57,461 nucleotides of DNA. Origin: Ralstonia sp. ASV6. Lineage in GTDB: Bacteria; Pseudomonadota; Gammaproteobacteria; Burkholderiales; Burkholderiaceae. The stretch lies in contig NZ_JAELUI010000010.1 in assembly GCF_016429285.1 (NCBI RefSeq), forward strand, positions 1-57,461. The letters run 5' to 3'. Position numbers and translations under genes: made by a program. Under the pieces are notes generated by a model. It saw only the letters and a program-made list of their open reading frames with translations, did no database searches and had not been told where the DNA came from. Shown here piece after piece: positions 7,959 through 57,132 of this stretch. Positions within the stretch are counted from its first letter, which is position 1, and each line of letters starts with the position of its first letter.

Positions 7959-7976
7959 GGTGGTGGTCTCCCCTGC

Positions 7977-41157: not shown

Positions 41158-41183
41158 GGCAGCCTGACCCTCGGAGAACCTCA

Positions 41184-41447
41184 ATGAAACCCACCGATCT
41201 CTTTACCGACTTTCAGAACCGCGTGACCGAGGCACTGCGCAACTCGCCGGCCGCCGACATCGAAAAGAACGTGCGCGCGATGATGACCCAGGGCTTTTCC
41301 AAGCTCGATCTGGTCACACGCGAAGAATTTGATGTGCAGTCGCAGGTGCTGGCCCGTACCCGCGCTCGCCTGGAAGAGCTGGAGACGCGCGTGGCTGCGC
41401 TCGAAGCGCAGCTCAAGACCACCGCCCCGGCAAGCACCGGCCAGTAA
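41184..41447 (+). CDS. ubiK: Accessory factor UbiK family protein
   Basis: This is an 87-residue protein. The N-terminal half is an amphipathic helix (MKPTDLFTDFQNRVTEAL) and the C-terminal half a coiled coil (RTRARLEELETRVAALEAQL), the BMFP/YqiC pattern. UbiK helps ubiquinone synthesis in the membrane-associated Ubi complex, apparently as a scaffold with UbiJ. The start at 41184 has CGGAGAA upstream. A single gene. Confidence 0.9.
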   Translation: MKPTDLFTDFQNRVTEALRNSPAADIEKNVRAMMTQGFSKLDLVTREEFDVQSQVLARTRARLEELETRVAALEAQLKTTAPASTGQ

Positions 41448-41619
41448 CGCGCGAGCGCCCAACATCACGCAGGGAGTGGGTACCGCCCCCTGCTGTGCCC
41501 GCCGCCGCACCCGTGCTGCGGCGCACAGCGAAAAGTTCGAAGCGCCGCCTTGTTGCAACTGGTGAACTGATCTAGAACGTCCTTAAGACGCACGCGCAGC
41601 AGCGCTTGAGGAGAAGATC

Positions 41620-42132
41620 ATGCAGCATCGTCTCTACTTTCTCTTGCCGGACGTCGCCAGCGCCCGGCGTGTCATGAATGACCTCCTGTTGGCGCGCATC
41701 ACCGAGCGCCACATCCACTTCGTCGCCAAGGAAGGCGCCGACCTCACCGGCCTGCACGAGGCCAACCTGCTCCAGACTTCCGACATCGTCCACGCCACCC
41801 AGAACGGGCTGGTGATCGGCGGAGGTGCGGGCGTGGCAGCGGGCGTGGTGGCCGCGCTGTTTCCGATCATTGGCGAAGGTCCGCAGTGGGGGATGGTCGG
41901 CATCACAACCGTGGTCGGCGCGCTGTTTGGTGCGTGGGCTTCCAGCATGATCGGCAGTTCCGTGCCGAACAGCCGCCTCAAACCGTTCAAGCAGGCGGTG
42001 GAGGATGGGCAGATCCTGTTGATGGTGGACATACCGCGCTCGCGCGTGCCGGAAGTGCGCGCCCTGCTGCAGAACACGCATCCCGAAGGCCGCTTCAGCG
42101 GTGAGGATTCGGCGATGCCTGCGTTCCCCTGA
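41620..42132 (+). CDS. DUF1269-type membrane protein
   Basis: This is a 170-residue protein. A soluble ferredoxin-like N terminus (YFLLPDVASARRVMNDLLLA) is followed by a glycine-rich hydrophobic region (VIGGGAGVAAGVVAALFPII and WGMVGITTVVGALFGAWASS) and a soluble end (ILLMVDIPRSRVPEVRALL). It fits DUF1269/magnesium-transporter-accessory-like proteins. The function is unknown. The start follows GAGGAGA. A terminator follows. Confidence 0.78.
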   Translation: MQHRLYFLLPDVASARRVMNDLLLARITERHIHFVAKEGADLTGLHEANLLQTSDIVHATQNGLVIGGGAGVAAGVVAALFPIIGEGPQWGMVGITTVVGALFGAWASSMIGSSVPNSRLKPFKQAVEDGQILLMVDIPRSRVPEVRALLQNTHPEGRFSGEDSAMPAFP

Positions 42133-42152
42133 TCTGATCTGCCGACAACAAC

Positions 42153-42179
42153 ACCGGAGCCACGTGCTCCGGTTTTTTT
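42153..42179 (+). terminator. Intrinsic terminator after the DUF1269 gene
   Basis: ACCGGAGC pairs with GCTCCGGT (8 bp, loop CACGT), followed by T7. Confidence 0.92.
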
Positions 42180-42334
42180 GCATTCAGACAGCGCGTCAAA
42201 TTTGGATGCAGGCAGAGATCACGGCGTGGCGTGGCTGGCACAGTGGCAGGTTCCTCTTACGCCGCGCACTGACACGCCATGCATCCCTGCCCCGCTCTCT
42301 GTTCCGCCAGTCATGTCAATCGGAGGACGCCGCG

Positions 42335-43213
42335 ATGAGCCTCGCCGTCCTGCGTTCACGCGCGCTTTCCGGCATCGATGCGCCAGCGGTGTCAGTGGAG
42401 GTGCATCTGGCCAACGGGTTGCCGTCGTTCACCATCGTCGGGCTGCCCGACACCGAGGTGAAGGAGAGCAAGGACCGCGTGCGCGCCGCCATCCAGAACA
42501 GCCGCTTCGAGTTTCCGGCGCGGCGCATCACCGTCAATCTGGCACCGGCGGATCTACCAAAAGAGTCCGGGCGATTTGATTTGGCGATTGCGCTGGGCAT
42601 CCTCGCCGCGAGCCGGCAGATTCCGCACACGCATCTGGACGCGCACGAGTTTGCGGGCGAGTTGTCGCTCTCGGGTGACTTGCGGCCGATTCGCGGAGCG
42701 CTGGCGATGGCGTATGCACTGTCGCGCAACCCCACATCCGCAGACGGCGAAGCGCCGCTGACCCGCGCGTTCGTGCTACCCACCGAAAACGCCGCAGAAG
42801 CCGCACTTGTCAGCGGCACCAAGGTGCTGCCCGCGCGGTCGCTCATCGAGGTATGCGACCACCTCAGTGCGCCCGACCGCAAGCTCGCGCCCGCGCTGCC
42901 CGCACCGGTCGATGCTGATATCCGCTATCCCGATCTGTCAGACGTGCGCGGCCAGCCGCAAGCGCGGCGCGCATTGGAAGTGGCCGCGGCGGGCGGCCAT
43001 TCGATGCTGATGATCGGCCCGCCCGGCACCGGCAAATCGATGCTCGCGCAACGCTTCCCCGGCTTGCTGCCGGACATGAGCGACGACGAAGCGCTCTCTG
43101 CCGCCGCTGTGATGAGCCTGACCACGCGCGGTTTCGATGCCAAGCGCTGGAAGGTGCGGCCGTTCCGGGCGCCACATCACACCGCATCGGCGGTGGCGAT
43201 GGTCGGCGGCGGC
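42335..43213 (+). pseudogene. comM: comM, 5' part, interrupted by an accessory element
   Basis: The first 293 codons of a Mg-chelatase-like AAA+ helicase of the ComM/YifB family are intact. They start MSLAVLRSRALSGIDAPAVS with GGAGG upstream and include the Lon-like domain (GLPSFTIVGLPDTEVKESKD) and Walker A (GPPGTGKSML). The match ends at HHTASAVAMVGGG; where relatives continue into PGEISLAH and the Walker B motif, the frame instead reads 25 foreign residues to a stop at 43291. ComM promotes branch migration in natural transformation, so this function should be lost. The 3' part is not in the window. Confidence 0.93.
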
Positions 43214-43291
43214 TGTAAGAACCAAAAATGGTTGCAAGGCTCCACATTTCCATGCAGATTTACATGGATAAATGCAAGGAGATTGCCATAG
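43214..43291 (+). mobile_element. Left end of an element inserted in comM, probably Tn7-like
   Basis: The element begins TGTAAGAACC directly after the third GGC codon of comM; Tn7-like elements start with TGT. Within 78 bases there are repeated short motifs (GGTTGCAAGG and AAATGCAAGG; CCATGCAG and ACATGG) that could be transposase sites, and a small inverted repeat AACCA/TGGTT. A five-base target duplication would be GCGGC at 43209-43213. The other end is outside the window, so the element is not bounded. Confidence 0.6.
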
Positions 43292-45094
43292 ATGGCCACA
43301 GGGTTCCGAATCAGTGAGTTCCCCAACGATGACCAATATTGGCGCGTCGACTGGATCGGAAAGGTTGCCCACAACCCTCATGTTGATAGCGAGCCCAAGG
43401 TCCACATATTGCTGAGTGCGCTTCACGATAACTATCGAGACCCGCTCAAGAACACTAGCCGTACAGGCAAGTGCTATGACGAGGCGTGGATCGGTGTCGG
43501 GCAGTTGCCGCTGGTCAGCGTAGGGTCAGTCTGGCATAGGCGAAAATTGCACTCCGTCATCAACGACGGCAACGCGGGCGGGCGCCTTGAAACACTCACG
43601 ATTAAGCCGACCAACCGCTTGCGAAACACGTTTGCAGGAAACGTGGAAGCCAATGGGCGATTGGTGAAGTGCATGCCTAAGGCCTACTACGAGGTCGGAG
43701 GCAATTTCAAGCATTTGGCCAACACCCCTCTCTGGGTGTATCCGGTGGAGCGGCAGTCATTCAAATTTGTGCTCATCCCCCCGGCGGAACTTCTACGGAC
43801 CTACTATCTGTGCTCAAGCGACGTAGCCCGAGCAGTCTTTTCCAATGATATTGGGGCGCTCATTGATCTCGATGAATCGGCCCCGTTGGAGGACGGCAGT
43901 CTTTTCCTGATGCTTTGGAAGAATATTGCGGACGGCGATGCTTGGTTCATCGGCCGATGGTACGCAAGTAAGGAGACGCACCGGGAGATCGACCATCTCC
44001 ATCGCGCGATGATGGCTGCAAGCGTCAATGCTCCCATCAACGGCAAGGGTAGCTCCCATGCCGTCCCTATCGAAATTGGCTTTCCGTTCGATGACGAGAC
44101 AACGCTGACCGCCTATGGGAAACGCCTGAGAATCGCCACGGCAACACCAGGCACAAATGAAAAGGACGTCTGGGCGTTTCTCGTACTCGGAATTCGCACT
44201 TGCTCGCACCCACTCCCCTACACAGACCTTGCGGTAGACCGCAAGAACAACTCGGCAAAGGGTGCGAACAGCGAGGATCCGGACCTGCCTGCAACTGCGT
44301 TCCCACCAGCCACCACGCAGCCCCAACAAGTTCCGCCAGAAGACGAGTTGAACTTGATCAGCAACGAGGAACCGCAAAAGGACGTTCGACCGTTACTGCT
44401 GCAGTTGTTCAAGGACCGTTTTGTTGACCTCTTGGGTCGAGCCCTTATCCAGGACGAGAAGAGTCTCCAGAAGTACAAGTCCGCAAAAGGCAAGTTGAAG
44501 GAAGCACAGCAGTTCGAAACCCACGGAACGGGAGAGGGTGAAGGCGCAAGCGGCGATGCCGGAAAGGTCGATATCCAGCAACAAACGAACCCATTTAAGA
44601 CCCGACTTCCGGCGGACCTCAAGACTTTTCTTGATGTCGTAAAAACAATTCGCTCGTCTAAACGTGCCGATGGGTGGGAGGTGACCACACTCACCGTCAG
44701 CGATCGCGGTTGGCCAATGGACGCGGACGATGTGCTGGCGTGCTTTCCGGCGCGAATCAAGGGTTGTCGATCGTGGCACCTGATGTCCAACTCCCCGGAG
44801 AGACCTCGGGCTGTTGTCATCGCACGCATCGATGAACCGCGTGGCACCTCGTACGTCATGGAACTTGAGCGAAAAACTGACAAGCATTGCGTTCTCGTGT
44901 TGCGAGCAGACGATGGCTTGCCTCTGGTCGATGCGACGCTAGAAAGGTTTCTGGTGATGACCGCAAGAAAGAATGGATGGCCCCCATCAGAGCTTCTGCC
45001 CAGACTGCTGCGCGCGAAGGTACCGCACCATGAAAGCAGGACGATACAGTCCTTTGCGAACGCGGTCCTCGCGAAGGTAGCCGAGCTGTGGTGA
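43292..45094 (+). CDS. tnsE: TnsE-like protein of a Tn7-like element
   Basis: This is a 600-residue protein. From memory of Tn7 TnsE I see shared order: an N-terminal beta-rich start (YWRVDWIGKVAHNPH), an ELLRTYYLCSSDVARAVF segment like ELARSLFLINSYF, a long polar linker (about 330-430), a C-terminal DNA-binding part with SYVMELERKTDKHCVLVL and GWPPSELLPRLLRAKVPHHE resembling LNWPNSLFDQL...GVNHP. TnsE directs Tn7 to replicating DNA and mobile plasmids. AAGGAG lies 10 bases before the ATG, which follows the comM-frame stop directly. It stands alone at the left end, reading inward; tnsABC are not in the window. GC is lower than in the core. Confidence 0.62.
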   Translation: MATGFRISEFPNDDQYWRVDWIGKVAHNPHVDSEPKVHILLSALHDNYRDPLKNTSRTGKCYDEAWIGVGQLPLVSVGSVWHRRKLHSVINDGNAGGRLETLTIKPTNRLRNTFAGNVEANGRLVKCMPKAYYEVGGNFKHLANTPLWVYPVERQSFKFVLIPPAELLRTYYLCSSDVARAVFSNDIGALIDLDESAPLEDGSLFLMLWKNIADGDAWFIGRWYASKETHREIDHLHRAMMAASVNAPINGKGSSHAVPIEIGFPFDDETTLTAYGKRLRIATATPGTNEKDVWAFLVLGIRTCSHPLPYTDLAVDRKNNSAKGANSEDPDLPATAFPPATTQPQQVPPEDELNLISNEEPQKDVRPLLLQLFKDRFVDLLGRALIQDEKSLQKYKSAKGKLKEAQQFETHGTGEGEGASGDAGKVDIQQQTNPFKTRLPADLKTFLDVVKTIRSSKRADGWEVTTLTVSDRGWPMDADDVLACFPARIKGCRSWHLMSNSPERPRAVVIARIDEPRGTSYVMELERKTDKHCVLVLRADDGLPLVDATLERFLVMTARKNGWPPSELLPRLLRAKVPHHESRTIQSFANAVLAKVAELW

Positions 45095-45110
45095 TCAGGG
45101 CCCTCGCTGC

Positions 45111-48100
45111 TTATTGACCGATGTGTTCCTGGACTGCTGCAGATAGCCCGCGAGCGCCCCTCCCAATGATTCGCTCCAAGTTCTCAATAGGCGTGTCGGC
45201 AATCTGCGCGAAAGAGTGCAACCCGGCTCGCCAAAGTCCTAGAAGTTCTCCTCGCGACAGCGCGATCGGAAGCTCCGTCAGCTCTAGCACCTCTACAGGG
45301 ACACCAAGATCCAGACGCTTTAAAAGCGTTGCCACTGAATTTGGATCTTCTGCGCGCTCAAGCACGATGGCGGAAATCCTCAAGATCGACTCAAGCAAGA
45401 AACGGCTACCGTCTGCGTAGCCTCGAATATCCCCGTGCCCAACACGCACGAAAGTATTCGGCGAATACCGACCCTCGATATCACCGACTGCAACACCGTC
45501 CAGCCAGTCAGCAACGATGAGTGCTCGCTTGCACCTAGCGTAGAACTGGCGGTCACTCGTTGCGCGATGGCGCAGCATGCGCGTCACGTCCCAACCGAAA
45601 CGGTGCCCTGCGTCCTGTTGTCGACCTGGCTCCCCCTGCCTGCTCTGTGGCGTGTAGTCCTGATCGCGTTCGGGTAGAGCTTCCACCAGCACAAGCAGAC
45701 TCTCCAGTGTCACGGCTTGGGGATCGAGGCGACGTATGAGCTCCACGGCCTGCAGGGCAGACTCAAGGGTTAGTGGAGATTCCCCGCAGGCACGGCCCAA
45801 TATTGTCAAGCTCACAAAACCGCCGCGCTCTTCGATTAGACCGTCTACGATCATGCGGCCAAGCAGATCTTCAAGGCGCGCAGTCATTTGCGGACGCCAA
45901 AGCGGATCACGCAGCGTAGCTAGATAGCCACCATATGTGTTGGCAACCAAATCAACTACAGCCTCGCGAGGAACCTCTCTCACCTGGGCCAGTAGCCTTA
46001 CCACCCATGTCCCTGGATCGTGCGGATCGAAAGAAGAAGTGATGGGTTCCGGCCGGCCCTGAACATAACGCCGAAACAATGCATTTTGCTCGAATCTAGT
46101 ACTCGCAAGGAGCACAGCTTTGCCTTCGTTTTCATACCCTAACCTCCCAGCGCGACCGGCCATGTTCTTGTACTGACCGACAGAGTAGGGTTCCTCGGCT
46201 CCCGCACCGGGGAAAGATGTTTCGACTATCACTACGGTCGAGGCGGGCGTATTCACTCCAGCCGCGACGGTGCTGGTAGCCACAAGAACGTGTATCCCCC
46301 CGTCGGGGTCACGAAAACCACGCTCTATGGCCACTCGTTCCTCGCGATTGAGGTCGCTGTTGTGAAATGCGACGCCCCCGACAAGAGAAATCCTAAGCCG
46401 CCGAGACATCATAGACAGATCACGCTCTGGCAGAGCGTCCAGAACCGCATGAGATGCTGGCAGCCCCAAGTTGGCTGCAAGATACTCCGCGCACCCGGCT
46501 GCAGCCCCTCGGCTGTTACGGAAGACAATGATCTTTTCGCCCCTCGCTACCAAGTCACGTACTAACGGGACTATCACGTCTTGGGACGACGGTTTCTGGC
46601 CGCGCTGCTGAATCAATGCGCCGTCCAACATTTGCTCTATACGAGCGTCCCCCGCCGCAGCCAAAAACTGCCAACTCCCATCGCGGTCGAGCACTCCTTC
46701 CGTCAGGGGCACCGGTCGCTCGGTCGTCAGCAAGAGTCCACAGTCGAGCCAGCGATCGAAAGCGTTAGCATCTCCAATCACGGCACTCAGAGTTAGAAGC
46801 TGAGGGGTAACTCCTCGCTGCCTAGCGCTGATGAGATTTGTTAGAAGTAGCTCGACCACCATCCCACGACCAGGTTCGGTGATGAACTGCGCCTCGTCCA
46901 AAACAACCAAGCCGATTTGGTTGAGGATGTGAGGAGCAGAAACCGACAGGCTCAGGAATTTCTCGTACGTGAAGAACGCAATGTCGTACTTACCGCGCAG
47001 GATGTCGCCGACTTGGTCTTGCCAGTCACCGCTACAGCGGGCGACTCTGAGATCTAAGCGTTCACCGTACAGTGCTGAGAAGTCCTCATACTTCTCATTC
47101 ACAAGCGCCTTATACGGCAGTAAGAAAACCGCCTTTCTTCCTTCAGAAATGGCTTTAAGCGCAGCCATTTCGCCGATGAATGTTTTACCAGCGCTGGTTG
47201 GAGCGACCACGAGCAGTGAACTTCCGTCGAGGACCCCATGCTCGTTTACAGCAGCAATTTGCAGGGCATTTAGCCCTCCAGGGAACCTCTCTCGCCACGC
47301 TGCAAGTACGTTATCGGAGAAGCCATAAGGCACCAGATCGCCAAAATCCCCCCTTGCCATAACCTTGGCACGAGCTGGGAAGAGAGCGAGGTAATTTTCG
47401 CCTCTTCGGCCGGCAGGAATGACAAGCTCACCCTCAACATGGCCGAACATGACAGGCGTCTGCTCGTACCCAAAGCGATTTGCGTCTGCTCGAACGAGTT
47501 GGACCACACGATCAACCAATCCAATCACGCTCACCGGTTCGTTGGCCGACAGGAGGCACTCAAGAATCGCTTTTGTGAAAAGCCCATGACGCGATCGGGG
47601 ATCCTCCAATGCTGGCTCGTCCTGTGCCGATGCCGCGAACAGGACTCGGCCACGACCAGCTACGTCAGCCAGCGGTAAGCCAATGTTGCGAGACACCAAT
47701 CCAAGATCAAGGACCCGAGCGGGGGCACCCCCGCTGAAACAGCAATCAAGGAGTAGTACCACGGCCCGGGCAGCCGTAGTTCTGAACCGCTCTGCTAGGT
47801 GAGCCATGTCTAGCGTAGTCGCGAGCAGATCGTCAGCTCGCGTGTCCGCCACAACTAGACGATGATCGGGAGTCCCATGCCCGGCGAAGCTCAGAAGGAC
47901 CACATCATCCTCTGTGGCGCCTCCGAGCGTGTGGTCAAGCGCGGCCGTGATTGCCTGCAGGCTCGCATGCTCGTCGGTGATTAGAGCGGCCTCAAGACCA
48001 GCAATGGAGTCCGAAAATACTGCCCACAACGCTGAGGCATCACGTGCCGCACCGCTCAAATCCCGAATAAGTGGGTCTTGGTATCGGTTAATACCAATAA

Positions 48101-48116
48101 AGGCCGCTCTTATCAA
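45111..48116 (-). CDS. Caspase-like protease fused to a Hel308-like helicase
   Basis: This is a 1001-residue protein. Residues 1-230 form a caspase (C14) domain: His80 in LLSFAGHGTPDH and catalytic Cys126 in LLLDCCFSGG. Residues 265-760 form an SF2 Ski2/Hel308-type helicase: APTSAGKT (305-312), DEAQ (407-410), VATSTVAAGVNTP (612-624) and QYKNMAGRAGRLG (648-660). A winged-helix part and a helix-hairpin-helix-like end (ENLERIIGRGARGLSAAVQ) follow. The start is TTG 48116, two bases after the YodC-like stop, so translation is coupled. It probably detects abnormal nucleic acid and activates its protease to stop growth (inference). The protease substrate is unknown. Confidence 0.85.
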   Translation of the reverse strand: MIRAAFIGINRYQDPLIRDLSGAARDASALWAVFSDSIAGLEAALITDEHASLQAITAALDHTLGGATEDDVVLLSFAGHGTPDHRLVVADTRADDLLATTLDMAHLAERFRTTAARAVVLLLDCCFSGGAPARVLDLGLVSRNIGLPLADVAGRGRVLFAASAQDEPALEDPRSRHGLFTKAILECLLSANEPVSVIGLVDRVVQLVRADANRFGYEQTPVMFGHVEGELVIPAGRRGENYLALFPARAKVMARGDFGDLVPYGFSDNVLAAWRERFPGGLNALQIAAVNEHGVLDGSSLLVVAPTSAGKTFIGEMAALKAISEGRKAVFLLPYKALVNEKYEDFSALYGERLDLRVARCSGDWQDQVGDILRGKYDIAFFTYEKFLSLSVSAPHILNQIGLVVLDEAQFITEPGRGMVVELLLTNLISARQRGVTPQLLTLSAVIGDANAFDRWLDCGLLLTTERPVPLTEGVLDRDGSWQFLAAAGDARIEQMLDGALIQQRGQKPSSQDVIVPLVRDLVARGEKIIVFRNSRGAAAGCAEYLAANLGLPASHAVLDALPERDLSMMSRRLRISLVGGVAFHNSDLNREERVAIERGFRDPDGGIHVLVATSTVAAGVNTPASTVVIVETSFPGAGAEEPYSVGQYKNMAGRAGRLGYENEGKAVLLASTRFEQNALFRRYVQGRPEPITSSFDPHDPGTWVVRLLAQVREVPREAVVDLVANTYGGYLATLRDPLWRPQMTARLEDLLGRMIVDGLIEERGGFVSLTILGRACGESPLTLESALQAVELIRRLDPQAVTLESLLVLVEALPERDQDYTPQSRQGEPGRQQDAGHRFGWDVTRMLRHRATSDRQFYARCKRALIVADWLDGVAVGDIEGRYSPNTFVRVGHGDIRGYADGSRFLLESILRISAIVLERAEDPNSVATLLKRLDLGVPVEVLELTELPIALSRGELLGLWRAGLHSFAQIADTPIENLERIIGRGARGLSAAVQEHIGQ

Positions 48117-48118
48117 CG

Positions 48119-48343
48119 CTAACCTCGGTGGATTCCAATGGCACCGAGGCCCGGGGCTCCCGCCTTGTCCAGCGTGGCAGGCGGAAATGTGTCACGTTGC
48201 ACAGTCTGCCTGCTACCGACTTTTTCAAACCACGTGCACCAGACAGCTTCGACGCCCGTCATGGCGTCATTCCCGACCTTCTCGACCGTCATTCTCGGCC
48301 CTCCGGATTTCAATTGAACAACATCACCGGGTTGAAAGCTCAT
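48119..48343 (-). CDS. YodC family (DUF2158) small protein
   Basis: This is a 74-residue protein starting MSFQPGDVVQLKSGGPRMTV, with WCTWFEK in the centre, the pattern of YodC/DUF2158. The family is a small SH3-like beta barrel of unknown function. The ATG at 48343 has CTGGAG upstream. The C-terminal 20 residues (APGLGAIGIHRG) extend beyond the usual domain. It is two bases upstream of the caspase-helicase, so the two are probably made together; it may be a cofactor or regulator of it. Confidence 0.8.
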   Translation of the reverse strand: MSFQPGDVVQLKSGGPRMTVEKVGNDAMTGVEAVWCTWFEKVGSRQTVQRDTFPPATLDKAGAPGLGAIGIHRG

Positions 48344-48476
48344 AAATTTCTCCAGAGTGTTCAATGCTGCAATTCGACGGCATACGCGCCGAACATCCAA
48401 GGCCGGTTACGCAATAGGCCGATTGGGGGAAGCGCGATGCCGAGACAACATGTGCTGTAGCACTAGGATGCTTCGG

Positions 48477-48611
48477 CTACTTGCTTGGCTTCGCCGGTTT
48501 CACCGCGGGCATCGGAGGTGGGGAATGCTTCACCGGGGGAAGGTTGGCGCCCCTCTCAATCCTTCTCACTGGTTGCGACGTGGGTGCTGGTGGCTTCTGG
48601 TTATTCGTCAT
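48477..48611 (-). CDS. Small proline-rich peptide, copy 2
   Basis: A 44-residue frame starts MTNNQKPPAPTSQPVRR and ends in NLPPVKHSPPPMPAVKPAKP plus SK. Its ATG lies inside the last codons of the SLATT-like gene (11-base overlap, GCGATGACGAATAA). The C-terminal half is closely like the peptide at 49131-49274: both have LPPV-x3-PPPMPAVKP and end in KPSK or KPSKPTK. The DNA is also similar over this half. The conservation of the frame between copies argues that it is translated. Function is unknown. Confidence 0.65.
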   Translation of the reverse strand: MTNNQKPPAPTSQPVRRIERGANLPPVKHSPPPMPAVKPAKPSK

Positions 48612-49110
48612 CGCCTTCACTGTAGTGATGTGTCAAATATTGAGCGGCACGCTGCTCCGCCTTCTCAAGCAAAACCGGGTTGTCCGGCAGGCCACTCAAG
48701 GGAAAATGCGTTTTCAAAGTCTTCGCAATCTTCGCCTGCAAATCTGCCCGGGCCTTGCTAATTTCCGACTCGGTCAACAATCCATCAGCAATCTCACACC
48801 ACCTCGCCTCCGCCCAATTCTGATGCAGTCGGTACTCGTGGGCACAGGCCGACGCAGCACGCACGCGCGACGAGAACGGAAGAAATTTGCTCGTCGTACT
48901 TACGATATGCGTGAGAACAATGATGCCACTCCACACCAACGGGAACTGTTTGAATACAGCCCAAATCCCGAGGCTGCTGGTTGACGTGACCGCTAGGGCC
49001 ACGTTGGCCCGACGCTCCAACAGTGCTGAGCGCTGAGAATATGCTTCAAGAAAGTACCCGTGCGATACGAGCTCGTAGAGAGCCCGCCAGAATCGTTGCT
49101 GCGGATTCAT
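48601..49110 (-). CDS. SLATT-like two-helix membrane protein
   Basis: This is a 169-residue protein. Two membrane helices lie at about residues 36-54 (ANVALAVTSTSSLGIWAVF) and 57-77 (PLVWSGIIVLTHIVSTTSKF), followed by a helical cytoplasmic part with RVRAASACAHEYRLHQNWAE and SKARADLQAKIAKTL. This is the layout of SLATT domains, which are predicted pore-forming effectors in antiphage systems, often under nucleotide or protease control. It is flanked on both sides by related proline-rich peptides. I cannot assign the SLATT subfamily. The start MNPQQRFWRAL is the only good one. Confidence 0.72.
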   Translation of the reverse strand: MNPQQRFWRALYELVSHGYFLEAYSQRSALLERRANVALAVTSTSSLGIWAVFKQFPLVWSGIIVLTHIVSTTSKFLPFSSRVRAASACAHEYRLHQNWAEARWCEIADGLLTESEISKARADLQAKIAKTLKTHFPLSGLPDNPVLLEKAEQRAAQYLTHHYSEGDDE

Positions 49111-49130
49111 ATCGTTTGACTCCGCTCAGC

Positions 49131-49274
49131 TCATTTTGTCGGCTTCGACGGCTTTACAGCAGGCGCTGGCGGCTTGACGGCAGGCATCGGCGGCGGGCGT
49201 CGCAACACCGGGGGCAAGGAATCTCCGACGACCTGTCGCACACCAGTCGGTTTGGGGGTCTTAATTGAGCTCAT
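49131..49274 (-). CDS. Small proline-rich peptide, copy 1
   Basis: A 47-residue frame starts MSSIKTPKPTGVRQVVGDS and continues LPPVLRRPPPMPAVKPPAPA to the end VKPSKPTK. The ATG at 49274 has GGAGGAG at eight bases, the strongest ribosome site in the region, so it is almost certainly expressed. It lies 20 bases upstream of the SLATT-like gene and is a paralogue of the peptide downstream of it. No family is recognised. PxxP repeats could bind SH3-like folds such as that predicted for the YodC-like neighbour (speculation). Confidence 0.72.
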   Translation of the reverse strand: MSSIKTPKPTGVRQVVGDSLPPVLRRPPPMPAVKPPAPAVKPSKPTK

Positions 49275-49356
49275 CTCACATACTCCTCCCTGCGCTATTT
49301 CACGTTCGATATTGTGGATGCTGCATAGTCTTTGCAGATACTGCCGCATGATCGCT

Positions 49357-51573
49357 CTAGACACGAATCGGTAGCGACACCTGCGGCTGGATCGGTACTA
49401 GAGTCTTCGCGTATGCACGCAATATGTCGTTGTAGAGTTCAGCGTGCTTTGGTGCTTCAACCGTTATGATTAGTGCGTACCGAATCTTCTCTGGGCCGGT
49501 TGCACGTCCGCCACCTTCACGCGCGTTGTAGTGGATATCGAATACCGGACTATCGAGACTACTGCCAAGCATGCCCTTACTGCCATGCAGAACTGTTTCC
49601 CACTTTCCTAGGTCGGAGCGCCGTTCCGCTTCAGTGGCAAACTTCTTCATATCGAAGAAGCCGGCCGTCTCAGCGTTGGCTTTGCCATCTTTGATCTTCT
49701 TGTCGCTAGGACGAAAAACGATGTCCAGACCCGCCCGAGTGTAGGCGGCTGCATCCTGTGGATCAGTCGGCGACGCATAACAGAAGGTCGCTTTCAGCTT
49801 GATTTTGCCGGTCAAACCGCCAACAGGAAGAGGTAGCGCAGCTCGCAAGTACTTTCCGGGCTTCAACTCACCTTGGTAGACCACACGCGCCACACCTGGA
49901 GGACAAGTAATGACCGCCATAAGGTCTTCGGGCACTTTCCCCCAGCCCACTTCAAGTTTGTCGTGCAAAGCTGGATCTGCTGCGTGAATTAGCAGAGCTT
50001 TGATCGCCAATGGGGTCAAATCTGAGCCGAGAATTGCTCGAACGCCGACCGCGCTCCTCAGCAGATAGGGCGAAGCGAAGCTGGTGCCTAGCTGCGGCGA
50101 CAACGCCGGCTTCTTTCCGGATGACAGAACGTGAAAGTACTTTGTCGCCTCCCCACCAAAAGCGAGCAAGTCTGGCTTAACCACGCCTGGGCTACGCCCT
50201 GGCCCGATCGCACTATAGGCAGCGCGAGCCCAACCGTCCTCAGTATCATCAGCCGCCCCAACCGCCAGAGCGTTGACACAATCCGAAGGCACTTGCACGC
50301 GAGCGTTGCCCACGGAGCGATCCAGTTTCCCATTGTTACCTACCGCGACGGTCATCAAGGTATCGCCATCGCTAAGCAGATCATCGATGACCGAAGTCCA
50401 AGCGTGAACGTCCGTGTCCTCGATAGGCAGATCCGGGCCAAAGCTGAGGTTCACAAATTGGTACTGCCGAGAGAGTAAAACTTCCTCGACAAAACCGAGC
50501 GTTCGATAGAGCTCCAGGGGATCCTCGATCTTCGTATCTTTATCGAGCACGCGCAGGTGATCTACGTATGAGAATGGTCGCGAGGCCGTGCCGTTGGGCT
50601 GAATTGGACCGAATAGGAAGGCCGATGTCACACCCAACCCGTGCTCGGGACCTTCAGGATCGTCCTCGGCATCCTCGTCCATCAAGCGATATGAACGTAG
50701 CCACGGTGTAATCGTGTGCTGCTTCGGCAGACCGCCGTCCAAAATAGCGACTTTGGGTTCAGACGATAAAGGCTGCTCGACGGGGAGACTGCACCCAACG
50801 GAGACCTCGCCCGACCGATGAACCGGCCACATACCGCGCAACTTCGGCATCGGCCGAATGACTCGCACGAATGCAAATTGGGCAAGACGCTCAATGTCGT
50901 CGGCTTGACCTTGCGCTGGCACAAACCACAGGTTACCTGCAGTGAAGCCGAGGTCTACGTAGACCTTAACGTCTACGTGCTTTGCAAAGCGACCAAACGC
51001 GCGCTGCACAAACAAATGGCTTTCATTGGGTAGCAGATGAAGGCCGACTTCAAAGAAGCGGTCCTTCTTTCCTCCCAGCGATACGATGCGCTCTTCGGGT
51101 TCGAAGGCCGAGAACTGCTCGATGTGCGCCAGATCCAGCGCCTCCTCTGTTTCCGGCTCAACTTCATGCGCCCAATTCTGGAGGGCATGAAACACCTGGC
51201 GCTTGCCCGCGACAAATAACTCCGTCGTGGTGCACTCGCGCGGCTCACCCTTCTTTGTCCAACCGTCGGGGGTAACTTTAACCGTCCGACTGCCAACTGA
51301 CTCCAATCCAACTGAACGTAGCAGCGCGACAGGAAAGAACGACCTCGCGATGTAGCTAGGGTTCATCATCAGCCGAGCCACACCAAAATCACCAGGACAC
51401 GCCTCGTCCGGCAACGCGTCCAACGCTTCCGACGCCGTAGCAAATTGAGGGATCAAGCGCTCCTGGGCCTGCGTCAAGGTATACACCTCCGCCTTGCCCG
51501 GCTTGCGCTTGGGCCCTTTGATCTCGTGTGTCAGCAGCTCGCCACGGCCGATCAGGAAATTGGTTTGGCTCAT
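49357..51573 (-). CDS. ietS: Subtilisin-like serine protease, IetS type
   Basis: This is a 738-residue S8 peptidase without a signal peptide. The triad is Asp279 in KVAILDGGLP, His311 in PEHGLGVTSA and Ser498 in LGTSFASPY; the oxyanion Asn is in VAVGNNG. The 270-residue N-terminal part is family-specific. Together with the adjacent AAA+ ATPase (11-base gap) it matches the IetAS antiphage system, in which both proteins are required. How the ATPase triggers proteolysis is not settled. It is the second gene of the seven-gene minus-strand run. Confidence 0.85.
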   Translation of the reverse strand: MSQTNFLIGRGELLTHEIKGPKRKPGKAEVYTLTQAQERLIPQFATASEALDALPDEACPGDFGVARLMMNPSYIARSFFPVALLRSVGLESVGSRTVKVTPDGWTKKGEPRECTTTELFVAGKRQVFHALQNWAHEVEPETEEALDLAHIEQFSAFEPEERIVSLGGKKDRFFEVGLHLLPNESHLFVQRAFGRFAKHVDVKVYVDLGFTAGNLWFVPAQGQADDIERLAQFAFVRVIRPMPKLRGMWPVHRSGEVSVGCSLPVEQPLSSEPKVAILDGGLPKQHTITPWLRSYRLMDEDAEDDPEGPEHGLGVTSAFLFGPIQPNGTASRPFSYVDHLRVLDKDTKIEDPLELYRTLGFVEEVLLSRQYQFVNLSFGPDLPIEDTDVHAWTSVIDDLLSDGDTLMTVAVGNNGKLDRSVGNARVQVPSDCVNALAVGAADDTEDGWARAAYSAIGPGRSPGVVKPDLLAFGGEATKYFHVLSSGKKPALSPQLGTSFASPYLLRSAVGVRAILGSDLTPLAIKALLIHAADPALHDKLEVGWGKVPEDLMAVITCPPGVARVVYQGELKPGKYLRAALPLPVGGLTGKIKLKATFCYASPTDPQDAAAYTRAGLDIVFRPSDKKIKDGKANAETAGFFDMKKFATEAERRSDLGKWETVLHGSKGMLGSSLDSPVFDIHYNAREGGGRATGPEKIRYALIITVEAPKHAELYNDILRAYAKTLVPIQPQVSLPIRV

Positions 51574-51584
51574 GCGTCAGGTTC

Positions 51585-52742
51585 CTATCTTGAAGTCTTC
51601 CTTGCAGCGGTTGAGGGCTGATTCGCGTACTTTCGGATAGTGTCGCGACTCACTCCGGTGAGCTCTCTAATCGTGTGCTGCGACAACCGGGTCTGATTGG
51701 CCAACAGCACTGACAACTCGATACGTTCATGCCGATCAAGCGTCAACACACGCGACTTGATGAACTCTTCAATGAGATCGGCATCGGCCGTCACACCTAA
51801 GGCCAATGCACGCCGGAAGCGCTGAATCTCTCGCTCGATATCGCTAAAGGACTCGCCACGAAAAGCGAAAGCCAAGATGTCAATCCAACGACCGAACAAC
51901 GCAAAATCGGGCCCCAAGAAGCGCTTGATAGCTGCTTTTACGGCGGGCATCTCCGGCAAACCGAACTCGACGACCAAATCAAACCGACGCCACAATGCAG
52001 GATCAATCAACTCAGGGTGATTGGTAGCCGCTAGCAGCAAACCTGTGGCCGGCCACTCATCAACTTCCTGCAGTATCACGGTCACCAGACGCTTCAGTTC
52101 ACCAATATCGGCATCGTCACTCCGACGTTTGGCGATTGCGTCGATCTCATCTAGCAGCAATACACAAGGACGCTGCTTAGCAAAATCCAACGCAGCCCGA
52201 AGATTGCTTCCGCTACGGCCGAGCAGACTGCTCATGACAGCGGTCAGATCGAGCACATACAACGGCACGCCAAGTTGCGCTGCAAGCCAGCGCGCTGTCA
52301 GCGTTTTACCCACCCCCGGCTTTCCGACAAAAATGGCCGAGCGCGTTGGAGTGAGGCCCAGGTCCGTTAGGCGTTTTACCTGCCGACGCTCCTGAATGAG
52401 CTGCGTCAAGCCCTCTTCAATTGGTCCCGAGAGCAGCGGCTGCTCCCGCTCCGGCGAGTCCTGAAACACTTTCAATAGCGAGAGCCGCGACTCATCGTCT
52501 ACCGGAAGCGCCTGCTCAGGTGCCGCAGGTCGCATAACTTTCCGCATAGGCGCAGAGGACCGAGAGGCCTTGGTCTTCAAGTAGAGATCCATCTGCTCGG
52601 AGAGATCCGGGGCGCTACTTCGATACTTCCGCACCAGCCGAGCCACAAACAACCGAACATCGTCCGACTGTTCAGACAAGGCCAGCCTCACAACCTGGGC
52701 TAGATCAGATTGAACTTCATTCATTTCGCCCACATCACCCAT
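51585..52742 (-). CDS. ietA: AAA+ ATPase, IetA type
   Basis: This is a 385-residue protein. Walker A is GKPGVGKT (140-147), Walker B VLLLDEIDA (194-202), sensor 1 AATNHPELID and arginine finger WRRFD. A helix-turn-helix-like end (LSQHTIRELTGVSRDTIRKY) suggests DNA binding. It pairs with the downstream subtilase as in IetAS. It is the first gene of the run. ATG 52742 is used; ATG 52724 is an alternative, and neither has a strong ribosome site. Confidence 0.85.
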   Translation of the reverse strand: MGDVGEMNEVQSDLAQVVRLALSEQSDDVRLFVARLVRKYRSSAPDLSEQMDLYLKTKASRSSAPMRKVMRPAAPEQALPVDDESRLSLLKVFQDSPEREQPLLSGPIEEGLTQLIQERRQVKRLTDLGLTPTRSAIFVGKPGVGKTLTARWLAAQLGVPLYVLDLTAVMSSLLGRSGSNLRAALDFAKQRPCVLLLDEIDAIAKRRSDDADIGELKRLVTVILQEVDEWPATGLLLAATNHPELIDPALWRRFDLVVEFGLPEMPAVKAAIKRFLGPDFALFGRWIDILAFAFRGESFSDIEREIQRFRRALALGVTADADLIEEFIKSRVLTLDRHERIELSVLLANQTRLSQHTIRELTGVSRDTIRKYANQPSTAARKTSR

Positions 52743-53209
52743 AAGTAATTGATTTATATAGTATTTTTATTTATTCCAACTGGACTAGTATAAGTATAGC
52801 GCACCACAAACCTCGTGGAAAGGACAAATCTAGGCGCGGAAGGGTCTTGGCCGCTCGAGAGCAGCCGACACTCGTGCCCCACGCCCCATCTACGTTTCCT
52901 CCATCGCTTCGTTTGCGCGAGCGCACCTCAGCGAGCAACGTGGAGATCGCGCTCACTGCCACGAAGTTGTCGCTGGTTGGGGCCGGTGCAGCAATCACCT
53001 CAACTTGGTGACCTATGAGATCTAGATTGATCTCGGTAGCGTCGAATCATCGTCAGGACTAGTATTTGAACTGCAATGACACGACGACGGTCGTCACAAG
53101 AATTGTGAGTACGCCGAGAGGGAGCATGCCGCTGGCCCAGTCTGGAGTCGGTTCTGGTAACCAATGAGATAACGAAGTGACGCGACCGAACGTCACGAAG
53201 GGGCAAACT
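52743..53209. other. Divergent intergenic region between ietA and the HAD gene
   Basis: Bases 52741-52800 are strikingly AT-rich in a GC-rich genome and contain TATACTTATACTAG on the minus strand, a probable promoter for the ietA operon. The rest has no convincing gene. A minus-strand frame near 53059-53180 ends in a hydrophobic stretch (MLPLGVLTILVTTVVVSLQF) but lacks a clear start and ribosome site. Nothing else is recognised. Confidence 0.5.
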
Positions 53210-53821
53210 ATGGACGTACGCGCAGTCGTGTTTGACGCTTTCGGCACTCTTGTGCGGATCGGCGACAAGCGGTCGCCATACCGAAGGCTGATGCAATGGA
53301 TGCACGAGAATGGAAGAAAGCCAACGCGTGAAGACGCCGCACGCATCATGTCTCACCCCGGCGGACTGGCAGACGCGGCAGCAATGTTTGGCATCACTCC
53401 TTCGAGTGAGACACTGGCTACGTTGGAAGAAGACCTGCACACCGAATTGGGAGCGATTCAACTTTTTCCCGACACAGCGTCGACCTTACTGCAGCTACGT
53501 GGCGCAGGCTATCGCATCGGCCTTTGCTCTAATCTGGCAGCACCCTACGGGCCGCCCCTCCGGAGCCTGCTACCGTCAATGGACGCTTATGTTCTGAGCT
53601 ACGAAGTTGGCGCCATAAAGCCTGACCCCCGCATTTATCAGCATCTCGTCAACGCACTCGACTGCCGCCCTGCCGACATTCTTTTCATTGGCGACACCCC
53701 CAGCGCGGACCTTGAGGGGCCACGGGCTTTCGGCATGACAGCGACACTGATAGACCGAACGGCGGGCCAAACTTTAGAAGACGTTCTAGCCATCGCGCGG
53801 CTGTGCAAGTGGCTGCAATGA
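53210..53821 (+). CDS. HAD-superfamily hydrolase
   Basis: This is a 203-residue protein. Motif I is VVFDAFGTLV (nucleophile Asp9), motif II is in GLCSNLAAPY, motif III lysine in GAIKPDPRIY and motif IV in LFIGDTPSADLEG. It is a haloacid dehalogenase-like phosphatase with a helical cap. ATG 53210 has AAGGGG upstream. It lies 49 bases ahead of the retron RNA on the same strand. HAD proteins are not a known core part of retrons, so it may be independent cargo; the substrate is unknown. Confidence 0.85.
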   Translation: MDVRAVVFDAFGTLVRIGDKRSPYRRLMQWMHENGRKPTREDAARIMSHPGGLADAAAMFGITPSSETLATLEEDLHTELGAIQLFPDTASTLLQLRGAGYRIGLCSNLAAPYGPPLRSLLPSMDAYVLSYEVGAIKPDPRIYQHLVNALDCRPADILFIGDTPSADLEGPRAFGMTATLIDRTAGQTLEDVLAIARLCKWLQ

Positions 53822-53870
53822 AAGCAAGGAGACCTCATTGCAGTGCAGTCGCGTCACACCGTACAATCGA

Positions 53871-54003
53871 TTGCCGCCCCAGGTAGGACTTAATTTTGTC
53901 TGCGTTAACGCGGACATTGCAGCATAGTTACCCCGTTCCTCTGGGTCTTCCTGGACTTACTGGGCTATCCCTATATACAGGTAAAAGATGCCTGGGGCGG
54001 CAA
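53871..54003 (+). ncRNA. Retron msr-msd RNA
   Basis: The bases TTGCCGCCCCAGG (53871-53883) are perfectly complementary to CCTGGGGCGGCAA (53991-54003), the a1/a2 pair that bounds retron RNAs; two more pairs (one G-U) extend it inward. Inside, a 7-8 bp hairpin with loop TTAA (53898-53915) would be an msr stem, and ATAG/CTAT around 53924-53968 could close the msd stem. It lies 10 bases before the reverse transcriptase start. The branching G and the exact msd ends cannot be fixed by eye. Confidence 0.85.
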
Positions 54004-54013
54004 CCCAACGAAT

Positions 54014-55894
54014 ATGAGTGCACCCTCCACCCGGGCCCTTACGCCCGAACTCCTTGAAGCAATGAGACAGTTGCTTCAGAAAACCCAAGTCAATTCGTTT
54101 TCGTCGGCAGTATTGGGCGCCCCATATGCGGCGGTTCAAGGGATCTTGTACCCGCGACCGCCATACCGTTCATTTGAACTCGCCAAGCGTAGTGGTGGCA
54201 TTCGCGTGATACGAGAGCCGCGCAAGCGGCTCAAGCTTCTGCAACTGAAAGCGCTGGAGGACCTGGAACGAAGGGCGGGGCGCCCGAAGCCCTGTGCGCA
54301 CGGGTTCGTGAAAGAACGCAGCATCGTCACCAACGCTCGCAAGCACCTAGAACGCAAGCCGCACTTCCTGCTGAACCTGGATCTGGAAAAATTCTTCCCA
54401 TCGATCAACTTCTTCAGAGTGCGGGGCGTTCTAAAGAAGCCACCCTTTGGCTTCTCCCATGAGGTCGCCACTGTCCTTGCACAGATGTGTGTCTTGGACA
54501 ATGAATTACCTCAAGGAGCACCGACGTCGCCCTTCTTGTCCAACGAGATCTGCCGAGGTCTCGACAGAGACCTGATGGCGCTTGCACGGCGGCACCGAGC
54601 AACGTATACGCGCTACGCTGACGACATCACGTTCAGCTTCTCGACCCCGAATGCCACCTCATTGCCTGCAAACATCTGCACTTTCGATGGGGGCTTGGTC
54701 ACTCTGGGGCAGGAGCTGATCTCAATCATTGCTTCGCACAGCTTCCAAATCCATCCAACGAAGACGCGAATGTCTACGCGCCGACGCCGGATGGAGGTCA
54801 CAGGTGTGGTGATTAACGAGTTCCCGAATGTAAAGCGCATTTTCATCGACCGGATTCGCGGAGCCTTGCACGCCTGGGATCGGTACGGCTATGACCTAGC
54901 CCAGAAAGCGTGGGCAAATCGAGTTCAAACCGGCGCGTCGACCGCGTATGAAAAACGCCCCTGGAAGAGGCAAACTCGCTCGGGCAACCCGCCTGAACTG
55001 AAAAACGTCCTGTGGGGGAAACTACTATTCGTGCGAATGGTGCGCGGTGCCGATGATGCGATCTACACTCGCCTCGCCGAGAAGTACAACCACCTGATAC
55101 AGCGAGAACGCGGAGCGAAACCCGATTTCGCAGCGTCAAGTTTGCCTGTGGAGGCGATCGTTCGTAACGCCGAAGATGCGGAACGCGCGGTCTTTGTTGT
55201 CGAATGGAGTGGCGACTATCTGCCGACCGGGACCACGGAAGCCACTATGGCCTATGGTCAAGGAACAGCCTTCGCGTACAAAAAGAAGGATCGTCTCATT
55301 ACTTGCGATCACGTGTTCACAGCCCGCTGCGAGATCGCGGGCGCTTCCGTCGATGTGGACATTCAATCGAAGGACCTTCGTGAGGTGTCGCTTGAGGCGC
55401 ACGACCCTGCCACGGGTAATCGATGGCCGTTGCGCATCGTTCACCGTGACGCGCCGCGCGATTTAGCAATCCTACAGTTCGAAGGCGAGCCGGCCGCCCA
55501 ACGGTTTTTCTCAGGAATGGACGCCCCCATCAATCGTCATGCTCCGGGGCACCTCATTGGCTTCCCTAACTGGAGTCCGGGCCGGCGAGCCAATGTCGAA
55601 CCAGCGATAGTCACAAACCGGTTCCGCCGGTCCGCACTGCAGCGTGTCGAGATAAACCAGTTGATCCGCAAGGGCAACTCCGGGGGCCCCTACGTGGACG
55701 AGTTGTTTCGCGTCGCTGGCGTCGCCCAAAAAGGTGCAACTCAAGACGACGGCAACAACGAATGCCTGTGCGTAGCGGAGCTAGATGCTTGGATCCACGC
55801 TTGCGAGGAAGCACCGGCCCCCGCCGCGTCGGCAGCCACGGTAGCGCCGGCAGTGGCAGTACCGCCCGGAACGCCCGCGGCCCCATTCACGTAG
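54014..55894 (+). CDS. Retron reverse transcriptase fused to a trypsin-like protease
   Basis: This is a 626-residue protein. The reverse transcriptase (about 1-345) has the retron NAxxH motif (NARKH, 107-111), catalytic NLDLEKFF (Asp123), QGAPTSP (167-173), TRYADDITF (199-207) and the retron VTG motif (262-264). The C-terminal part (about 390-600) is a trypsin-like protease: His433 in LITCDHV, Asp483 in APRDLAIL, Ser556 in KGNSGGP. It ends in a low-complexity Ala/Pro tail. The reverse transcriptase would make cDNA from the upstream RNA; the protease is the probable effector, released when phage factors disturb the complex (inference from other retrons). Confidence 0.92.
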   Translation: MSAPSTRALTPELLEAMRQLLQKTQVNSFSSAVLGAPYAAVQGILYPRPPYRSFELAKRSGGIRVIREPRKRLKLLQLKALEDLERRAGRPKPCAHGFVKERSIVTNARKHLERKPHFLLNLDLEKFFPSINFFRVRGVLKKPPFGFSHEVATVLAQMCVLDNELPQGAPTSPFLSNEICRGLDRDLMALARRHRATYTRYADDITFSFSTPNATSLPANICTFDGGLVTLGQELISIIASHSFQIHPTKTRMSTRRRRMEVTGVVINEFPNVKRIFIDRIRGALHAWDRYGYDLAQKAWANRVQTGASTAYEKRPWKRQTRSGNPPELKNVLWGKLLFVRMVRGADDAIYTRLAEKYNHLIQRERGAKPDFAASSLPVEAIVRNAEDAERAVFVVEWSGDYLPTGTTEATMAYGQGTAFAYKKKDRLITCDHVFTARCEIAGASVDVDIQSKDLREVSLEAHDPATGNRWPLRIVHRDAPRDLAILQFEGEPAAQRFFSGMDAPINRHAPGHLIGFPNWSPGRRANVEPAIVTNRFRRSALQRVEINQLIRKGNSGGPYVDELFRVAGVAQKGATQDDGNNECLCVAELDAWIHACEEAPAPAASAATVAPAVAVPPGTPAAPFT

Positions 55895-55898
55895 GTCC

Positions 55899-56256
55899 TC
55901 AAGCTAGTGCGAGTTGATACAGATAGGGAACCGTCTGCATGTCGCGTCGCAAAATGCTGGCCGGTTCCCCCGCTACGGAGCTGTACCAACGGAACGTATG
56001 AGGCCAATCGAGTAGAAGACAAGCCGCAGCGACGAGCAAGTGATGTCGCTGAGCTATACGGTGGCGCTCAAGCGGTATCACCCTCTCCACCGAACATCGC
56101 GGCAACTTGAAATCTCGCTCGATCTGCGTGAGAGGCAATTTGTGCTTCGAAGTAACAGCAGCCAACATGCGGCATATTTGATGGACCGCATCGAATACTA
56201 GATGGGAATACATAGACGGTGGCAGAGGTGCAGCAGACCATCCGACTGAGCATAGC
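55899..56256 (-). pseudogene. Truncated gene fragment, possibly TniQ/TnsD-like
   Basis: A minus-strand frame is open from the IS66 junction at 56256 down to a stop at 55899, about 118 codons. It contains LPPSMYSHLVFDAVHQICRM and LLVAAACLLLDWPHTFRWYS. The open start at the junction shows that the gene was cut by the insertion. The DWPxxF helix and the preceding HLVFDAVHQICR pattern recall TniQ-family proteins of Tn7-like elements, but this is recognition by eye. It would fit a Tn7-like island. Confidence 0.35.
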
Positions 56257-56314
56257 GTAAGCGTCCTGGCGCCCCATCTTGAATCGGCAGATGCAAACGA
56301 GCATCGTCCCCACG

Positions 56315-56734
56315 ATGGACAATCGTGGAGACGATGAATCGATGACGACGATAGAACGCCGGCCGCGGCGGCGAGAGTACAGCCCCGAGTTCAAGGCGCT
56401 GGTGCTGGAGCAAATCCGCCAGCAAGGATCAGTCAGTGGGGTGGCGCTTAGCCATGGACTGCACCCGAACATGGTGCATCGCTGGATGCACGAGGAACGC
56501 GAACGACAAAAGCTGGCGGCGCAGCGCGCAGGCAATGCGTTTGTTCCACTGCTTGTGCAGTCTGCGGCGGCGGTACAGCAGACGAACGAGGACATTCTTT
56601 GCGAGCCGCCGACGCGGGCGGCACCCGAAGAGATTCGCATCGAGATCCAACGCGCGGGCGGTACGCTGATTGTGCATTGGCCGCTGTCGGCAGCGCAGCA
56701 GTGCGGGCAACTGCTCAGGGATTGGCTGCGATGA
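56315..56734 (+). CDS. tnpA: IS66 TnpA
   Basis: This is a 139-residue protein with a helix-turn-helix of the transposase_8 type (YSPEFKALVLEQIRQQGSVS; HGLHPNMVHRWMHEER) and an acidic C-terminal part. It is the first of the three IS66 genes and needed for transposition. The start is ambiguous: ATG at 56291, 56315 or 56342. The stop overlaps the tnpB start (ATGA). Confidence 0.9.
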   Translation: MDNRGDDESMTTIERRPRRREYSPEFKALVLEQIRQQGSVSGVALSHGLHPNMVHRWMHEERERQKLAAQRAGNAFVPLLVQSAAAVQQTNEDILCEPPTRAAPEEIRIEIQRAGGTLIVHWPLSAAQQCGQLLRDWLR

Positions 56735-57063: not shown

Positions 57064-57132
57064 CCGTCGTCATGGCGTTGACATCGCAAATCCTGATGGC
57101 GGTAGTGGTGCACGTCATGACAGCATGGGTCC

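Follow-up and report, generated by a model that had tools for sequence, protein, structure and literature searches.

A probable Tn7-like cargo of three separable defence modules in Ralstonia, including a SLATT-like gene linked to proline-rich micropeptides

Do seven neighbouring genes that share one strand in Ralstonia sp. ASV6 make up a single defence system, or several systems that lie side by side? The genes occupy positions 45111..52742 of contig NZ_JAELUI010000010.1, a stretch of 57,461 nucleotides that was analysed at full length and is called the window here. All seven open reading frames (ORFs) are on the minus strand, and the six gaps between them are 11, 82, 20, -11, 133, and 2 bases. 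A first-pass annotation, made from the sequence alone, had proposed that they form one defence operon; its genes, coordinates, and gaps were reproduced exactly, and profile searches back its identification of IetA, IetS, DUF2158, the caspase, and the helicase. From 5' to 3' on the minus strand, the genes are as follows, with the module to which we assign each.

51585..52742, minus strand: ietA, AAA ATPase, module 1 (PADLOC IetA profile)
49357..51573, minus strand: ietS, subtilisin-like S8 peptidase, module 1 (PADLOC IetS, Pfam Peptidase_S8)
49131..49274, minus strand: micro1, 47-amino-acid proline-rich micropeptide, module 2 (PMPAVKP motif)
48601..49110, minus strand: SLATT-like membrane protein with two transmembrane (TM) segments, module 2 (weak NCBIfam SLATT_4 match, hydropathy)
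48477..48611, minus strand: micro2, 44-amino-acid proline-rich micropeptide, module 2 (PMPAVKP motif; 11-base overlap with the SLATT-like gene)
48119..48343, minus strand: DUF2158/YodC-like small protein, module 3 (Pfam)
45111..48116, minus strand: caspase fused to a Hel308/Ski2-like helicase, module 3 (Pfam C14 and DEAD; TTG start)

In our reading, the block is probably the cargo of a Tn7-like element inserted in comM and is made of three separable same-strand defence modules, which look like (1) IetAS, (2) the SLATT-like gene with its proline-rich micropeptides, and (3) DUF2158 with the caspase/Hel308-like helicase. Sequence comparison supports the boundaries between the modules, the presence of the element, and the link between the SLATT-like gene and the micropeptides. 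The distribution of the modules among relatives carries the separation. Relatives of each of the five larger genes exist elsewhere. For module 3, we compared 91 caspase-helicase loci, with at least 5 kb available on both sides in 66. A SLATT-like gene was found at one of the 91 (L068, about 3.8 kb away and in a different order) and IetS at none, and partial IetA-like matches were found at two (L021 and L091, 28–31% identity); all 15 close relatives had DUF2158 and the caspase-helicase without the SLATT-micropeptide cassette. For module 2, among the nine other cassette loci with downstream DNA, DUF2158 was found at none, the caspase-helicase at L068 only (in the DNA examined), and IetA or IetS at one, L094. 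For module 1, 31 IetA-type loci besides the window were collected, namely 20 from a scan of 300 genomes of the order that gave 29 matches besides the window, 10 picked among the matches listed (60 of 586 plasmid records), and L094. Both IetA and IetS were recognised by phmmer in 15 of these 31, and no phmmer match to IetS was obtained in the other 16; one of these is L163, where the record has an annotated S8 peptidase. Near the 15 complete pairs, a SLATT-like gene was present at one (L094) and DUF2158 or the caspase-helicase at none, so that 14 of the 15 had IetA and IetS without the remaining block genes in the DNA examined. A composite seven-gene system was thus rejected on the distribution of its parts, and the fallback of at least a five-gene unit fell with it, as the split lies within those five genes, at the 133-base gap. 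The co-occurrence comparison that the first-pass annotation had suggested placed the second half in different contexts, the outcome that it had itself named as counting against a joint unit. Its other suggestion, two adjacent systems, was right about the adjacency of separate systems and wrong about their number, which we put at three.

The element itself was recognised from the interruption of comM. The two features at the left junction are as follows.

42356..43213, plus strand: N-terminal part of comM/yifB, cut by the element (TIGR00368 positions 3-284; match 42356-43216)
43214..43216, no strand: probable left end of the Tn7-like element (TGT..., read at the junction)

The remaining comM (TIGR00368 positions 282-499) lies on a second contig of the same genome (C82:4277-4915, L166), where genes for TnsA, a TnsB-like transposase, and TniB adjoin it at the far junction; Pfam recognised TnsA N and C, Mu-transpos_C, and TniB (1.3e-69) on that contig, that is, the TnsA/TnsB/TniB gene set. 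The junctions read TGT at the left end and ...ACA at the other, and the comM break coincides with a drop in GC (guanine plus cytosine) content from about 61–65% to about 56%. Because comM is split, Tns genes stand at its second half, and TGT and ACA are found at the junctions, the block is most likely Tn7-like cargo in comM, with the comM halves on two contigs. The gene comM is a target of Tn7-like elements that carry defence genes.

The micropeptides define module 2. One to three short proline-rich ORFs lie directly 3' of the SLATT-like gene in all 10 loci with downstream DNA (the window, L094 on a Methylotuvimicrobium plasmid, L095 with three, L068 with two, L148, L150, L153 with three, L169, L170, and L171); the G744 locus, in which the contig ends inside the SLATT-like gene, was left out of this count. 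The window also has a copy ahead of the SLATT-like gene, micro1, whose ATG is preceded by GGAGG. The start of the first micropeptide ranges from 35 nucleotides inside the SLATT-like gene (L068) to 6 nucleotides beyond it (L148). The pairwise score of micro1 and micro2 (94) was matched by none of 300 shuffles; the same was so for micro1 and the third micropeptide of L095, on pMOC4 (score 86; tblastn 59% over 22 amino acids, E 2e-4), and for L095c and L153a (score 52). Many other pairs did not score above shuffles, and tblastn of the micropeptides in the nine other loci gave no match beyond that of micro1 in L095. The motif P[MT]PxVKP was derived from these same micropeptides, and its specificity is therefore the informative part: of 40,758 short ORFs screened, with window copies excluded, it occurred in 7. 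Every one of the 7 is SLATT-linked, and they come from five loci, two in the window, two in L068, and one each in L094, L148, and L150. In leave-one-locus-out profile searches, the peptides of L094 and L150 ranked 1 and those of L068 ranked 1 and 2, and micro2 also ranked 1, at an E value of 0.039.

Selection on the micropeptide could be gauged in the four L150-type (prophage-like) copies. The proportion of synonymous differences (pS) was near saturation both from the LPP motif on (0.69–1.05) and before it (0.68–1.03), and the proportion of nonsynonymous differences (pN) was 0.04–0.14 from LPP on as against 0.23–0.44 before LPP, values that rest on few sites (13–17 synonymous sites per part). 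Because pS is saturated and pN is low from LPP on and higher before it, the micropeptide is, judged from these copies, coding, and its C-terminus is under stronger constraint than its N-terminus. Searches with micro1 and micro2 against Pfam (E up to 1) and against PADLOC, NCBIfam, and PHROGs (E up to 0.1) gave no match. In L094 and L095, the micropeptide ORFs have no protein entry in the gene tables; the PLSDB table is incomplete, and a locus-tag number is skipped at that place in both. The SLATT-linked micropeptide family appears to be new, as it was found neither in the libraries searched nor by word search among the open-licence PubMed Central (PMC) papers listed. If conserved and co-translated, such a micropeptide would be a directly testable regulator that is short enough to escape annotation.

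The membrane protein had been called a SLATT effector, and this name could be retained in part. Each of seven aligned members has two hydrophobic 19-residue segments; in the window protein, the second of these is weak (0.58). An AlphaFold2 model built on five sequences was all-helical (predicted local distance difference test, pLDDT, 81.8). Both results fit a hairpin of two TM segments with soluble helices after it. The NCBIfam SLATT_4 profile matched the window protein at 26.2 bits (cut-off 55), and relatives at 27.7 bits (L148), 16.7 bits (L094), or not at all (L068 and L095); the Pfam SLATT profile matched neither the window protein nor the relatives scanned. Furthermore, no Pfam match to SMODS, SLOG, or another nucleotide-signal gene was found among the 10 proteins scanned. 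Because the profile match is below the cut-off and no nucleotide-signal gene is linked, we call the protein SLATT-like and do not file it as SLATT.

The SLATT-like gene is rare in the collections searched. In 72,556 plasmid records, each of four queries found two and the L095 query found one, all from the same two records, and none was found in 50,697 phages with the L148 and L150 queries. Viral scans with the window protein and with the L153 protein gave no relative, and the L148 query matched only itself. Genome scans gave the window's own gene only (300 genomes searched), the window's own and G744 (398), G744 and G899 (297), and G744 alone in a class-level scan that added nothing new (190). 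The cassette is found in varied contexts: IetAS adjoins it in the window and, divergent and about 200 bases away, in L094; a DRT8-like reverse transcriptase (RT; PADLOC 8.4e-74) in L068, on an island that also holds a caspase-helicase; an AbiU2-HEPN-like gene in L095; a DUF2971/PDC-S31 gene in L148; a YaaC-like gene in L153; and a caspase-like ORF downstream in L170 (6535-8412, plus strand; 25% over 142 amino acids to the window's caspase). The stretches L095 1769-2800 and L153 9143-10177 are of similar size and proved to be unrelated. In L150 no defence neighbour was seen by eye, and the SLATT-micropeptide pair may therefore be complete alone. Four of the five IMG/VR contigs share a small neighbour (L148 5986-6300, L150 5664-6017, L169 5664-5978, and L171 5630-5959), which is a phrog_5439 member in both cases tested (L150 and L169), and it is possible that such a neighbour marks a prophage cargo site holding the pair.

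Several observations weigh against this account of the cassette and of the three modules. The SLATT_4 match of the window protein is, below its cut-off, the sole basis of the label. The L153 micropeptides, and in part those of L095, have PMP without PMPxVKP, and the VKP part is missing from the peptides of both loci; leave-one-locus-out ranks were poor for micro1 (32), L148 (36), and L095 (4), and a profile trained on nine micropeptide copies missed the L153 peptides. The loci L169–L171 are related to L150 (93, 70, and 68%) and are not independent of it; they were retrieved with the L150 SLATT-like protein after the micropeptide family had already been described. Genes annotated 'caspase family protein' lie near IetAS, divergently, on two plasmids (L155 3649-4803 and L156 3641-4801); this caspase differs from the caspase-helicase, yet a caspase neighbour of IetAS does recur. 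IetAS adjoins the cassette twice, in the window and, divergently, in L094, and the L068 island holds both a caspase-helicase and a cassette. Joint transcription is also possible: the genes share one strand with small gaps, and a consensus scan of the 82- and 133-base gaps found no minus-strand terminator-like site, so that a single transcript may cross the block; the same scan found two promoter-like sites against a shuffle mean of 3.4, that is, not above shuffles. The shared strand, the small gaps without a terminator-like site in the larger ones, the L094 neighbourhood, and the L068 island are what a single seven- or five-gene composite would draw on, in which both proteases, the membrane effector, the micropeptides, and the helicase act together. 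We nevertheless consider such a composite very improbable, as the modules are separate in nearly all relatives examined, the L094 cassette is divergent from IetAS, and the L068 cassette stands behind the DRT8-like RT, where the caspase-helicase about 3.8 kb away belongs to a different clade. A narrower pairing, in which the cassette is an accessory of IetAS in a minority of loci and IetS would cut the micropeptides to release the membrane effector, appeals to the two of the 10 cassette loci that adjoin IetAS (82-base gap in the window, about 200 bases and divergent in L094) and to disordered proline-rich peptides as plausible protease substrates. It is decidedly unlikely, since the cassette is absent from 14 of the 15 other IetAS loci, IetA or IetS appears among the nine other cassette loci at L094 only, and both travel in defence islands, which bring neighbours together anyway.

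For module 2 as a separate module, we tentatively propose, with appreciably less than even confidence, that the micropeptide docks on the SLATT-like membrane effector and gates it. Translation of each micropeptide would be coupled to that of the SLATT-like gene; through its conserved C-terminal part (LPP...PMPxVKP), the peptide would dock on the membrane protein and keep it closed or set its threshold, the faster-changing N-terminal part would meet phage products, and loss or binding of the peptide would open the effector and stop the infected cell. Binding to the membrane protein is the simplest reading because the peptide is co-translated and has a conserved C-terminal motif, although the gating idea is a guess. 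The micropeptides might instead act as small toxins or co-subunits that the SLATT-like protein anchors or confers immunity to. Coupled starts, the presence of more than one copy in the window, L068, L095, and L153, and purifying selection are all consistent with such roles; the peptides look hydrophilic and proline-rich, with no membrane segment evident by eye, which sets them apart from typical small membrane toxins, and we regard this alternative as rather unlikely. Gating by the micropeptide could also be extended to a two-part immune cassette that has spread among hosts of different defence content. Here a disordered micropeptide would dock on the two-TM effector through its conserved C-terminal motif, control it, and offer a rapidly evolving N-terminus as 'bait'; diverged copies in tandem (two or three in 4 of the 10 loci) would let the cassette respond to more phage triggers, and the pair would plug into IetAS, DRT8-like RT, prophage-like, and Tn7-like contexts. 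This broader picture is, in our estimate, unlikely.

Module 3 consists of two genes. The DUF2158 protein matched its Pfam profile at 55.2 bits (cut-off 22.3) and no solved structure at an E value of 1. In the fusion protein, the caspase part matched Pfam Peptidase_C14 at 53 bits (cut-off 21.4; 4.8e-14) and retains the His and Cys of a C14 caspase; the helicase part matched DEAD (2.1e-21), with DEAD and Helicase_C both above the Pfam cut-offs. Solved Hel308/Ski2 structures match profile positions of about 264-998 of 1007, covering the core and the C-terminal region, and the protein is below the NCBIfam Hel308 equivalog cut-offs. Among 38 aligned members, His80 is kept in 38, Cys126 in 37, and the Walker Lys311 in 38. 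In the AlphaFold2 model (pLDDT 86.5), confidence is low for the loop at 129-146, just past the DCCFSG motif. Matches over at least 80% of the query were found in 12 of the 72,556 plasmid records (10 of the 12 were fetched); in the genome scan, 349 of 445 candidate stretches were caspase-helicase relatives, of which the best 80 were kept; a search of 200 genomes of the window's family gave two listed matches, one being the window's own genome and the other one further locus; and a viral scan with the window caspase-helicase gave no relative. DUF2158 lies directly upstream in 15 of 15 loci at 65–68% caspase-helicase identity (two of them, L002 and L012, both from Agrobacterium pusense; the pair also occurs in Mesorhizobium ciceri, L017), with 5–9 bases from match end to match start in 13 and with 47 (L014) and 51 (L015) where the DUF2158 match was shorter. 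By tblastn with the window DUF2158, it was found in 0 of 76 loci at 35–54% identity, with at least 300 bases upstream available in 69. We infer that DUF2158 is a clade-specific partner of the caspase-helicase. We would give slightly less than even weight to a mechanism in which sensing of phage DNA by the helicase switches on the fused caspase, with DUF2158 as that partner: the Hel308-like motor would engage aberrant or replicating phage DNA, and this engagement would activate the caspase to cleave a cell or partner protein.

As to other genes upstream of caspase-helicases, an ORF of about 300 amino acids, nucleotidyltransferase-like by eye, is shared by 10 loci that lack DUF2158 (L031, L034, L036, L043, L047, L050, L051, L065, L072, and L077), and related proteins of about 200 amino acids stand directly before more distant caspase-helicases (L009 8382-8987 and L011 8384-8989), where annotated TIR/caspase genes are nearby.

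The same stretch of cargo also carries a retron type XI RT-protease fusion (54014-55894, plus strand; PADLOC 5.1e-164). Just within the element's left end is a 600-amino-acid protein (43292-45094, plus strand) with no Pfam, PADLOC, or NCBIfam match at the limits used; a HAD-like hydrolase recognised by Pfam also lies between comM and the window's end, and IS66-type transposase genes (56279-57063, plus strand) are near its right end. A search with Rfam over 41000-57461 gave no match above the gathering scores.

Compared with known systems, module 1 looks like an ordinary, divergent IetAS. IetA matched PADLOC PDLC02196 (6.2e-78), and IetS matched PDLC02197 (1.5e-39) and Pfam Peptidase_S8 (3.2e-15). 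The AAA ATPase gene is adjacent to an S8 peptidase gene whose translation, by eye, shows the Asp (ILDGG), His (EHGLG), and Ser (GTSFASP) motifs, as in IetAS. The difference is that both proteins are below the NCBIfam equivalog cut-offs (IteA 223.7 bits against 510; IteS 110.4 bits against 900), as in a divergent subtype, and that a SLATT-like cassette follows here. Elsewhere, ThiF and multiubiquitin-domain genes adjoin IetAS in four plasmids (L157, L158, L159, and L161), and ietS of L154, from Enterobacter hormaechei, is split by an ISEc52 element (7148-10626). The element resembles, in its TnsA, TnsB-like, and TniB genes and its defence cargo, the Tn7-like transposons with defence cargo described in the consulted portion of PMC8649781, in which neither comM nor yifB was found to be mentioned. 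Neither a target-site duplication nor a target selector was located for the present element, no search aimed at the selector having been made. The separation of the modules is a caution against taking one transposon's cargo for one system.

The SLATT effectors of DRT10, DRT9, and GAP1-N, as far as covered by the consulted parts of PMC12632851, PMC12483538, and PMC7159879, are likewise small two-TM proteins in defence loci, predicted to form a pore. The SLATT-like gene here differs in that it is coupled to micropeptides instead of having a directly attached RT-noncoding RNA partner or a nucleotide-signal gene. The SLATT gene is needed for DRT10 defence, and the consulted part of PMC12632851 leaves the control of its product open; 'small protein' and 'proline-rich' have no occurrence in the consulted text of PMC12632851 and PMC12483538. 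DRT10 itself (UG17 RT, noncoding RNA, and SLATT) differs from the block, which has no RT, and the RT nearby best matches the retron XI RT-protease model and is on the opposite strand. For module 3, the caspase part matches the NCBIfam model of the EACC1-associated caspase (NF047832; consulted part of PMC7159879) at 106.4 bits, below its cut-off of 140, and the gene upstream is DUF2158 rather than EACC1. The module also differs from Hachiman, as the solved HamB structure matches the helicase part alone and more weakly (3.3e-32), with no HamA among 10 proteins scanned. With HamMAB (protease-fused HamA, HamB helicase, and a pro-nuclease) and the Canu caspase-nuclease, as described in the consulted part of PMC12799240, it shares a helicase system tied to a protease; it differs in that the caspase and the Hel308-like helicase form a single protein, accompanied by DUF2158, and neither HamA nor a pro-nuclease was recognised among the proteins scanned. 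In HamMAB, according to the same part of that paper, helicase-linked DNA sensing triggers the fused protease, which activates the nuclease, and a caspase fused to a Hel308-like motor could, by analogy, be the logic of HamMAB in one chain.

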